From Bacillota bacterium (GTDB lineage Bacteria; Sysuimicrobiota; Sysuimicrobiia; Sysuimicrobiales; Segetimicrobiaceae), in the NCBI GenBank assembly GCA_021324975.1, contig JAJPIA010000043.1:1-58648 (forward strand): a DNA stretch of 58,648 bases. Direction: 5' to 3'. The position numbers were made by a program, and so were the translations under genes. This document shows, piece after piece, positions 14,666 to 40,420 of the stretch. Within the stretch, counting starts at the first letter, position 1; every line of letters begins with the position of its first letter. Below the pieces are notes generated by a model. The model had not been told where the DNA came from, did not search any database, and saw nothing but the letters and a program-made list of their open reading frames with translations.

Positions 14666-15583
14666 TCAGGGCTTCGAGCCGGGAGCGGGGGAGGCCTCCG
14701 GATAGACGACCCGGAGCCGCTCGAACGCTTCGACGAGCGAGGCACCCGTCGCCGGGTCCATGAACCGGTGTTCGATCCGGCTCGTCCGGCTCAGGAACAC
14801 CGGCCCGTCGACATCCCCGGCCATCGGCCGCAGCCCGTTGTCGCTACCGACCACAAACGGCGCCGTCGTCAGGAAGTACTCGCGCAGGAGGCGCGCCCGG
14901 ACGAAACTCGCCAGGACATGTGGTCCGCCCTCGGTGACGACGCTCCGGGCGCCCCGGGCGGCTAAGACGCCGAGCGCGGCGGCCGGATCCGGCCGGCCGT
15001 CCGCGCCGGTCCGCACGCGCACGACCTCGATGCCGAGGCCCGCGATGCGGCGTGCCGTCTCGGGAACGTCGGGCGGGCGATCGCCGGCGATGATGAGCCG
15101 CTCGAACCGCGGGTCGGTGAAGAGCCGGCGGGACAGGAAGTCGGCCGGCCAGGCGAGCCGCGACGCGAGGACCGCGACCGTGAGGCGGGGTGACCGGCCG
15201 GCCGCTGCGCGCCGTGCGGCCTCGGACTCCGAGAGCACCGCGGTCACATCCTCGGCCAGGACCGTGCCGATGCCCGTCAACACCACGTCCGTCGCGACTC
15301 GGAGCCGTGTCAGCGCCAGGCCGTCGACACGGGTGCCGATCACCGCGGCCTTGCCGCCGACCGCGGCCTCGCCGTTCTGGGTCATAACCATGTTCGCGAC
15401 CAGATAAGGCAGACCACCGGCCGGACCTGGAAACACGAGGTCGGCATAGAACTCGCCGATCGGGACATCCCGGGGAAACGGCTCCGACGCGTGCCAGACG
15501 AGACGCACGTGGCTCGGCAGCGGGACCGTTTGCTTCCACCCGGGGCCGACGACGGGCCGTGCGCGACGGGGCTCCGATGCCAC
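14666..15583 (-). CDS. RibD C-terminal/dihydrofolate reductase-fold reductase
   Basis: 305 residues, with no deaminase domain. The RibD-C signature is present: YLVANMVMTQNGEAA (substrate loop), VLTGIGTVLAED, and VVTEGGPHVLASF (NADPH pyrophosphate loop). Members reduce pteridine or pyrimidine intermediates with NADPH; the true substrate here is unknown. The GTG 15583 has no ribosome binding site but has TATCAT exactly 6 bases upstream, so a leaderless transcript is likely. It heads a two-gene unit with the M20 peptidase. Confidence 0.82.
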   Translation of the reverse strand: MASEPRRARPVVGPGWKQTVPLPSHVRLVWHASEPFPRDVPIGEFYADLVFPGPAGGLPYLVANMVMTQNGEAAVGGKAAVIGTRVDGLALTRLRVATDVVLTGIGTVLAEDVTAVLSESEAARRAAAGRSPRLTVAVLASRLAWPADFLSRRLFTDPRFERLIIAGDRPPDVPETARRIAGLGIEVVRVRTGADGRPDPAAALGVLAARGARSVVTEGGPHVLASFVRARLLREYFLTTAPFVVGSDNGLRPMAGDVDGPVFLSRTSRIEHRFMDPATGASLVEAFERLRVVYPEASPAPGSKP

Positions 15584-37873: not shown

Positions 37874-38181
37874 CGCGGCCCCTCCGCCATGACCGGACGC
37901 ATACCGGCGACGTTTTACCCAGCGGGCCAACATTTTCGGCGCCGGACTCCGCTGGATCTTCGACCCGCACCCGCGGCCGCGCGTCGCCGAAGGTACCCGG
38001 AGACCCGCCGCGGCGCCGGGTGAACCTGCCGCGGCGCTCAGCCGTTTCGTAAGGAAGGGAGACGGGAGCCCCACACACCGTGGAAAACTCCGATCAAATC
38101 CTGCAGCGTATTGTCCATGCGCCGGCGCCGGGCGGTGCGTAGGCCCGCCCGGCCCGGTTGGGGGCCATCCCCGCCGCTGGA

Positions 38182-39291
38182 ATGGCCCCCGTCGGCCGTG
38201 CGCCGGTGGCGGTGAGCCTCCGGCGCACGGCCAAATCGTTTCCTCCCGGCTCGTTCGCCCCCGTGATGGCGACCGGAATCGTCTCGCTTGCCGCGTGGTC
38301 CGCGGGCTGGCACGGGGTCGGCTCGGCGCTGTTTCAGATCAACAAGGCCGCCTACGCGGCGCTGGCATGCCTGGTGGTGCTGCGGGTCGCGTGGCATTGG
38401 CCGGGCGTGCTCCGCGACATCGTGGACCACGCTCGGGGGGCGGAGTTTTTCACGATGGTTGCCGGCACGTGTCTGCTCGGCATGCAGTACCTCGTCCTCG
38501 GTCACGATGCCCATGCTGCGCTCCGGCTCTGGGCCGTCGGCGCCGGATTATGGGTGGTGCTGACGTACACGTTTCCGGCGGCCGTCGTCGTGCCGGACTC
38601 CAAACCGGACATCGGCCGCGGGCTCAACGGGAGCTGGCTCCTGCTGGCCGTGGCGACGGAATCCGTCGCCGGGTTGGGCGCAAGTTTGGCGCCCGGCCTG
38701 GACGGTGCACGGGTCCTCATGCTCTTTGTCACGCTCGTGCTCTTTTTCGTCGGCGCGGCCATGTACGGAACGATCATTGCGCTGATCGTGTACCGGCTGA
38801 TCTTCATCCGGCTCGCACCGGAGACGCTGACGCCCTTGTACTGGGTCAACATGGGTGCGGCCGCGATCACCGCGCTGACGGGCACCTTGATCGCCGCGCA
38901 GGCGTCGGGCTGGGGCTTCCTCCATGATTTGCTCCCCGCGCTCGACGGCCTCACGCTGCTGGCGTGGTGCGCGGCCACATGGTGGATTCCGCTCCTCCTC
39001 GTGCTGGGCATCTGGCGGCATGCCATACGCCGCGTGGCCCTCCGCTACGACCCGGAGTACTGGGGGCTCGTCTTTCCGCTCGGCATGTACAGCCAGGCAA
39101 CGCTGGCTCTCGGCGGCATGACGGGCCTCGCGTTCCTCTCGAAGATCGCGCGGGTGTTCGTCGATGCGGCCTGGCTCGCGTGGCTGGCAAGCGCCTTTGG
39201 TCTCGTCCTACGAGTCGGCGGCGAGCTGGTGGGCAGGCGTGGCCGGTCCCGGCCTGCTACAAGGCCAGGCGCATCTGCTGCGGAGCGTTGA
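38182..39291 (+). CDS. TDT family (tellurite-resistance/C4-dicarboxylate/SLAC1) transporter
   Basis: About 370 residues with ten hydrophobic helices. FPPGSFAPVMATGIVSLAAW is the opening signature of TDT/SLAC1 channels and transporters, and the C-terminal YWGLVFPLGMYSQATLALGG is also typical. The start is uncertain: TTG 38158, ATG 38182 or GTG 38206 are in frame and none has a strong ribosome site. Substrate (dicarboxylate, tellurite, sulfite, anion) cannot be assigned. Its 3' end overlaps the convergent radical SAM gene by 35 bp. Confidence 0.85.
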   Translation: MAPVGRAPVAVSLRRTAKSFPPGSFAPVMATGIVSLAAWSAGWHGVGSALFQINKAAYAALACLVVLRVAWHWPGVLRDIVDHARGAEFFTMVAGTCLLGMQYLVLGHDAHAALRLWAVGAGLWVVLTYTFPAAVVVPDSKPDIGRGLNGSWLLLAVATESVAGLGASLAPGLDGARVLMLFVTLVLFFVGAAMYGTIIALIVYRLIFIRLAPETLTPLYWVNMGAAAITALTGTLIAAQASGWGFLHDLLPALDGLTLLAWCAATWWIPLLLVLGIWRHAIRRVALRYDPEYWGLVFPLGMYSQATLALGGMTGLAFLSKIARVFVDAAWLAWLASAFGLVLRVGGELVGRRGRSRPATRPGASAAER

Positions 39292-40144
39292 CGCGTGCGG
39301 GATAGCGTGCCGCATCCACCCCGGCGTCGACCTTTTCTCTTTCAACCATGCGGCCCACCGCCGTCCGGTACGGCTGGGGCGCATACTTCCCGCCGTACAT
39401 CTCGCCGTACCGCGGTAGGAGATCCGGACGGTACCCCTTAAGAAACCGCATGAAGGAGTCCCGGGTCACCGGGCCCAGGTGGAGCACGTTGTGTCCGATG
39501 AAGCGCGCGCCGTGGTCGGCGGCCGCGTTGACCACCGCCTTGAGACTGCCGGGCGAGTCGGTCAGCCCGGGGAGGATGGGCGCCACGAGCACGCCGCACC
39601 TGATGCCCGCGTCGACGAGCAAGCGCACCGTTCGCAGCCGCTGCATGGGCGGGGCGGCGTGCGGCTCGATTTTCCGGGCGATCGACGCGTCCACGGTGAC
39701 CACGCTCAGGCAGACCGTGACGTCCGTCGTCCGACCCAGCTCGGTAAGCAGATCAACATCGCGCCGGATGAGCGGCGAGCGCGTCACGATGCCGACGGGA
39801 TTCCGAACCTGCACAAACGACTCCAGGATCTTCCTCGTCAGGCGGTAGCGGCCCTCGACAGCCTGATATGGGTCGGTCGCCGTGCCGAGCGCCACAGTCT
39901 CACGGCGCCACGAGGGGCGGGCAAACTCCCGGCGCAACACCTCGGGCGCATTGACCTTGGCGAAGATTTTTGTGGACCACTGATCGAGACCGTCCTCGTC
40001 GAGGAACCAGTGCGTCCGCCGCGCGTAGCAAAACGGGCACCCGTGCGAGCAGCCGCGGTAGGGATTGATCGACCACGCAAACGGCATGCCCGTGACCCTG
40101 TTGAGGACAGATTTGACCTGGATCTCGACGATCTCTCGCGGCAC
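39257..40144 (-). CDS. Rv2578c/SPL-like radical SAM protein
   Basis: 295 residues from GTG 40144. YRGCSHGCPFCYARRTH holds the C-x3-C-x2-C cluster ligands; FARPSWRRETVALGTATDPYQ is the Rv2578c-family hallmark, and the protein is related to spore photoproduct lyase, which repairs UV-damaged DNA. The start is set by a promoter: TTGAAA-17-TATAAT ends 6 bases before this GTG, so the mRNA is leaderless. The frame does extend to ATG 40207, but that would overlay the promoter. A LexA-type palindrome in the spacer suggests control by DNA damage. Its enzymatic role is not proven. Confidence 0.88.
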   Translation of the reverse strand: MPREIVEIQVKSVLNRVTGMPFAWSINPYRGCSHGCPFCYARRTHWFLDEDGLDQWSTKIFAKVNAPEVLRREFARPSWRRETVALGTATDPYQAVEGRYRLTRKILESFVQVRNPVGIVTRSPLIRRDVDLLTELGRTTDVTVCLSVVTVDASIARKIEPHAAPPMQRLRTVRLLVDAGIRCGVLVAPILPGLTDSPGSLKAVVNAAADHGARFIGHNVLHLGPVTRDSFMRFLKGYRPDLLPRYGEMYGGKYAPQPYRTAVGRMVEREKVDAGVDAARYPARVNAPQQMRLAL

Positions 40145-40150
40145 GGTGTG

Positions 40151-40179
40151 ATTATATGCGAACGTACGTTCGATTTCAA
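40151..40179 (-). promoter_or_regulatory. Promoter of the radical SAM gene with LexA-type operator
   Basis: Minus strand: TTGAAA (40179-40174), 17-bp spacer, TATAAT (40156-40151), then CACACC and GTG 40144. The spacer contains the 14-bp perfect palindrome CGAACGTACGTTCG (40159-40172), matching the Gram-positive/actinobacterial SOS box core CGAAC-N4-GTTCG. An operator between -35 and -10 would block RNA polymerase. Confidence 0.78.
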
Positions 40180-40420
40180 CGCCCGCATCCGCCGTCGCCT
40201 CGAGCATATCACCCCGATTCGAATAGTAGCGACTTCGGGGAGCCAGGCCTCTGGGCCCACGGTCTCGGCAGGACGTGACGCACCCCATCGTCGAGCGCGG
40301 CGTAACGACGCAAGCCCGACGTCACGCGCGCGAAGACGCGTGCCGCGGACGCGCCGCATCGTCGGGGTCCCAGGGTAACGGTCGCCGTTTAAATCAGGAC
40401 CGCGGGTCCGCGACGGTGAA

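Follow-up and report, generated by a model that had tools for sequence, protein, structure and literature searches.

A radical SAM gene under putative SOS control: a LexA-type operator inside its promoter and retained across several phyla

The radical SAM protein gene at positions 39257–40144 (minus strand) of the window, the 58,648-nucleotide stretch of DNA analysed here, is very likely a single-gene member of the SOS regulon, encoding a LexA-repressed, damage-induced radical SAM enzyme that probably acts on damaged nucleic acid. The palindrome in its promoter had been read as a LexA box from the letters alone, and that reading is now supported by the boxes that lexA and recA carry in the same genome and by conservation in front of orthologues. 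Because the box also changes from group to group together with that of lexA, SOS control of the gene is strongly supported. From these patterns in the DNA we infer binding, repression and induction, as well as the LexA protein that acts and the repair reaction. In undamaged cells, a LexA dimer bound to CGAACGTACGTTCG, which the -35 and -10 hexamers flank, would block RNA polymerase. Upon DNA damage, RecA filaments would lead LexA to cleave itself and the promoter would fire, giving a leaderless or near-leaderless mRNA that begins at GTG 40144. Its product, a radical SAM enzyme with a fold predicted to resemble that of spore photoproduct lyase (SPL), would probably act on damaged nucleic acid and very probably helps cells to cope with DNA damage.

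A direct reading of the minus strand from 40179 to 40142 gives TTGAAA T CGAACGTACGTTCG CA TATAAT CACACC GTG. The -35 hexamer TTGAAA occupies 40174–40179, a place where orthologues mostly have TTGAC, TTGAA or TTGAT, and the -10 hexamer TATAAT occupies 40151–40156, six bases before the GTG start codon (40142–40144). The putative LexA operator, the 14-bp perfect palindrome CGAACGTACGTTCG (40159–40172), lies wholly between the two hexamers, i.e., it is placed to block the promoter. The sequence-only reading had given exactly this arrangement, with a 17-base spacer enclosing the palindrome. TTGAAA-N17-TATAAT with at most one mismatch has its sole match in the window here and none in 100 shuffles. 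For CGAAC-N4-GTTCG without mismatches, the window likewise has a single site and the 4.43-Mb genome 13, versus 2 for the reversed control pattern. Because TATAAT is only six bases from the GTG, a transcript started at the usual distance would have little or no leader; similarly short spacings between the -10 hexamer and the start codon were found in three relatives (G002, G005 and G006). At its other end the gene converges with a SLAC1/TehA-family channel gene (38158–39291, plus strand), the two 3' ends overlapping by about 35 bp.

LexA is the master regulator of the response to DNA damage in bacteria, and the DinR box of Bacillus is CGAACRNRYGTTYG. The palindrome had been likened to this box and to the LexA operator of actinobacteria, and it does share core, length and spacing with both (actinobacterial operator tCGAAC-N4-GNNCGa; PMC9380542). 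As in those systems, the operator lies inside the promoter and both lexA and recA of the same genome carry the box; here, however, the palindrome is perfectly symmetric and the host has two LexA proteins of different half-site habits. The motif of the lineage was checked in its own lexA and recA promoters. In the window's genome (G000), canonical lexA (contig C3, gene at 15523) has CGAACAGGTGTTTG upstream of a TATAAT, and the recA promoter (contig C119) has the box CGAACATATGTTTG, its upstream sequence being read as TTGACAAACGAACATATGTTTGGTACAGT. These two boxes and the CGAACGTACGTTCG of the radical SAM gene all fit the consensus CGAACRNRYGTTYG. A counter-point is that the radical SAM operator is symmetric, with GTTCG, whereas the lexA1 and recA boxes end with GTTTG.

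Two further genes of G000, one uvrA-like and the other for a Y-family polymerase, are likewise preceded by symmetric boxes, and, judging from positions and ORF lengths, both sites recur correspondingly in G002. A box near the start of an rmuC-containing ORF in G000 is a less clear case. Genome G001 has boxes before a Y-family polymerase gene, the polymerase being confirmed by Pfam, and before an MrfA-type helicase, while G026 has one before a pair of ORFs whose second member is ImuB-like. The uvrA-like, polymerase, helicase and ImuB-like genes are typical damage-response genes. Several other CGAAC-N4-GTTCG sites, which lie inside genes or before genes that do not look SOS-related, are probably due to chance. 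In a separate observation, the box CGAACGTGCGTTCG (G000:C41:18632-18645, L006) precedes an ORF of about 190 residues that is possibly an unknown SOS gene.

The window comes from an uncultured lineage, and the labels given to its close named relatives are Armatimonadota, CSP1-3, ANGP1 or, either mistakenly or provisionally, Bacillota. Orthologues of the radical SAM gene were sought in 61 genomes, and 23 upstream regions could be read in the same order. Eighteen of these 23 hold a perfect CGAAC-N4-GTTCG in the promoter, whereas copies of these regions made with a first-order Markov model would give 0.008, so the palindrome is indeed present before the orthologues of close relatives. The boxes are preceded by TTGA and followed by a TAT-like -10 element; the remaining flanking bases and the start sites of the proteins differ. 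Two near misses keep the left half (G014, CGAACGTATGTACG; G028, CGAACAGATGTACC), and G017, G026 and G032 showed no box in the upstream region examined. Where a family has a longer N-terminus, the box lies some 100 bp farther from the conserved protein, indicating that the box tracks the promoter and not the coding sequence. The 66 neighbouring genes surveyed are mostly epimerases, transporters and metabolic genes; because they vary and have no common repair theme, the box can be assigned to the radical SAM gene itself.

Beyond the order, we analysed 80 further loci from many phyla. A box matching at least 9 of the 10 consensus positions lies upstream in 25 of the 80, compared with 79 of 1600 random 360-base windows. 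In Eremiobacterota, Chloroflexi and genomes labelled as actinobacteria, GAAC-N4-GTTC palindromes precede the radical SAM gene; in Chloroflexi alone, 16 of 30 upstream regions have one (0.1 expected). The Melghirimyces orthologue has the box GGAACAAATGTTCC. None of 27 acidobacterial radical SAM upstream regions contains GAAC-N4-GTTC. Instead, the direct repeat GCGAACAAANRGCGAA (CGAA-N7-CGAA) is found in 22 of the 27 (loci L122-L194) against an expected 0.38, a figure that is optimistic because the repeat was noticed in these same sequences before counting, although the excess is still about 60-fold.

The lexA promoters of these genomes were also read, and most have a group-specific box that corresponds to the one before the radical SAM gene. 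The Eremiobacterota lexA promoter has CGAACGTATGTTTG, those from genomes labelled Thermoleophilia or actinobacteria have CGAACATACGTTCG, CGAACAGACGTTCG or CGAACGTATGTTCT, and three from Chloroflexi/Dehalococcoidia have AGAAC-N4 followed by GTTCG or a GTTCT ending; two other Chloroflexi lexA promoters that were read showed no good box. By eye, four acidobacterial lexA promoters (L262, L264-L266) have sequences like TTCGCYTTTTGTTTG; read on the other strand, this is the motif found before acidobacterial radical SAM genes, suggesting that the GCGAACAAANRGCGAA-type repeat is the acidobacterial LexA box. On this comparison of promoters, operator and LexA have changed together without the radical SAM gene leaving the regulon.

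Two LexA proteins occur in the order: LexA1 has the helix SSSTVHSHL and LexA2 the recognition helix SPSTVHQHL. Inspected by eye, LexA2 of G000 (gene at C43:5914) retains the Ala-Gly cleavage site as well as the S24 peptidase's serine and lysine. Two lexA genes per genome are also known from bacteria such as Leptospira (PMC3789691); in this order, however, the two lexA promoters differ in box type, and the lexA2 boxes are arranged in tandem, usually about 34 bp apart (G000:C43:5795-5842, L107; also L043, L111, L112 and L195-L214). Among the boxes tallied, the GTTTG ending is shared by all 53 from lexA1 and recA, whereas all 38 lexA2 promoters have the GTTCG half-site, mostly as tandem CGTAC-N4-GTTCG, and the radical SAM boxes have GTTCG in 18 of 20 cases, with GTAC. 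in the other two. This suggests a refinement of the SOS explanation, rather than an alternative to it, in which the response is split: LexA1 would control itself and recA, and LexA2 itself and effectors like the radical SAM gene. In family f4, the recA boxes became CAAAC-N4-GTTTG and the lexA1 boxes changed as well, while the radical SAM genes kept CGAAC..GTTCG or CGAAC..GTACG and the lexA2 boxes also kept GTTCG. Furthermore, in G017 and G028, which have the radical SAM gene, no LexA2 was detected and the box is missing or disrupted, although G017 is only 72% complete. However, symmetric boxes with a promoter-like centre are still present in G024 and G027, two genomes without LexA2. In Eremiobacterota genomes where a single LexA was detected, the half-site is GTTTG before lexA but GTTCG before the radical SAM gene, so one LexA could plausibly bind both. 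The half-site evidence thus leans towards LexA2 at the radical SAM operator, and we consider the chances of a LexA2-specific operator to be evenly balanced. An isolated LexA2-type box, CGTACATATGTTCG, was also observed in G000 (C55:25503-25516, L251), followed by an ATATAT-like -10 element; no recognised gene start is nearby, and the next long ORF, 203 bp away, encodes a solute-binding protein.

SOS control of genes of this general type has precedents. In alpha- and beta-Proteobacteria, predictions place genes named splB (COG1533) in the SOS regulon (PMC3323433), splB-type SOS genes have been predicted in Bacteroidetes (PMC8565304), and the radical SAM gene vnz_31145 of Streptomyces venezuelae is LexA-bound and induced about 20-fold by mitomycin C (PMC9380542). 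With these predictions and one measured case, the gene in the window would add to the known SOS radical SAM genes. All are SplB-group radical SAM genes under measured or predicted LexA control, but the earlier ones belong to other phyla with other box sequences, and the likeness is drawn at the level of the group.

The radical SAM ORF encodes 295 residues from the GTG start and is real, as shown by its match to Pfam Radical_SAM (PF04055; E=8e-16, 59 bits against a cut-off of 29.5). The cysteines of its CxxxCxxC cluster motif (C32, C36 and C39) are the sole invariant cysteines among 41 relatives, in which the motif GTATDPYQ (residues 87–94) is likewise invariant or nearly so. The sequence-only reading had placed the protein in the Rv2578c family. 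This family (NF038135) is indeed the top NCBIfam match (300 bits, E 1.8e-89), but the score falls below the curated cut-off of 430, and the third match, the PA0069 family (NF033668; 243 bits, E 4e-72), likewise misses its cut-off of 360. All 41 aligned relatives match both profiles, and from these scores the group looks like a sister of the two families. Among the matches listed, phage copies are remote, with 26-31% identity. Six orthologues (L053, L058, L062, L065, L067 and L068) are ORFs of 503-691 residues whose match begins at residue 38, next to the first cysteines of the cluster; they probably contain inteins inserted in the radical SAM motif.

The fold of the protein points to SPL. An AlphaFold2 model was obtained with good confidence (pLDDT 89.5), and its six best PDB matches are all SPL structures (PDB 4FHC series), with TM scores of 0.67-0.70 and E values of about 3e-9. 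A phmmer search of the PDB with the single protein found nothing at E<10, and the alignment profile gave a weak SPL match that includes the motif EPGTxxxxxRLxAxxxxAxAG. The proposed kinship with SPL therefore stands in that SPL is the closest solved fold, with a common radical SAM core and an EPGT-type motif, but the relation is remote and the donor cysteine is absent. When motifs rather than superposed structures are compared, the SPL donor motif CTSDP (from the Melghirimyces SPL) aligns with the TATDP of GTATDPYQ, whose positions are invariant or nearly so among relatives. This correspondence implies that the donor cysteine of SPL (C140/C141) is replaced by the invariant Thr88. With the relation remote and this key cysteine missing, repair by the enzyme remains a deduction, plausible from the regulation together with the distant similarity of fold.

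The substrate could be something other than a DNA lesion, the gene being under SOS control while the enzyme modifies, for example, a tRNA, a protein or a cofactor during the damage response. The Rv2578c and PA0069 families have no established function, a 2026 paper describes as unproven the SplB label given to an Rv2578c-family protein from Streptomyces, and as speculative the link to repair (PMC12924846), and the neighbouring genes offer no repair theme. Against this, the nearest solved fold belongs to an enzyme of DNA repair, and DNA is what the majority of known SOS effector genes act on; we regard a substrate other than a DNA lesion as a real but minority possibility. Somewhat more tentative still is the fuller proposal, in which this radical SAM enzyme is widespread, is induced in the SOS response, repairs a DNA lesion through non-SPL chemistry, with the invariant GTATDPYQ in place of the donor cysteine, and is controlled by a dedicated second LexA splitting the SOS response of this phylum into two branches. 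That the enzyme is a true SPL is improbable, in spite of the similar fold and the profile match over the EPGT-type motif. A search of the window's genome with the Pfam SPL family (PF20903) gave no match, whereas Melghirimyces gave one at E 2.5e-190, and this organism has both the present protein and a genuine SPL. The relatives have only the three invariant cysteines, the donor-cysteine motif reads T-A-T-D-P, and spore formation is not known for most of the hosts. By the tests run the enzyme is thus not an SPL, although its modelled fold is SPL-like.

Two further explanations concern the palindrome. As a simple palindrome, GAAC-N4-GTTC could also serve unrelated repressors, but a repressor other than LexA is very improbable here, considering that the lexA and recA promoters of the same genome share the box and that across phyla the operator of the gene shifts with that of lexA, including the acidobacterial direct repeats. 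Least credible, to the point of being negligible, is the notion that the palindrome arose by chance or is a coding part of an N-terminally longer protein, for which the mechanically called ORF, open through the palindrome to an ATG at 40288, might speak: homology begins only at the GTG, and the region upstream of it has no coding conservation, with a stop just before the box in G005 and the box-containing frame interrupted upstream in G006. Both coding-sequence conservation and chance were therefore rejected, the box being kept while the frame is lost and its frequency lying far above the Markov expectation.

The evidence for SOS control of the radical SAM gene is broader than could have been seen from the window alone. 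Retention of a LexA operator in several phyla, following the LexA motif of each group, is strong evidence that the enzyme has a role in the DNA-damage response. Because the operator has been kept so widely, the long-open function of Rv2578c- and PA0069-type proteins becomes directly testable in ordinary laboratory bacteria, Streptomyces among them. The presence of two LexA proteins with distinguishable half-sites is a further testable point, and the substrate of the enzyme is the part of greatest interest.
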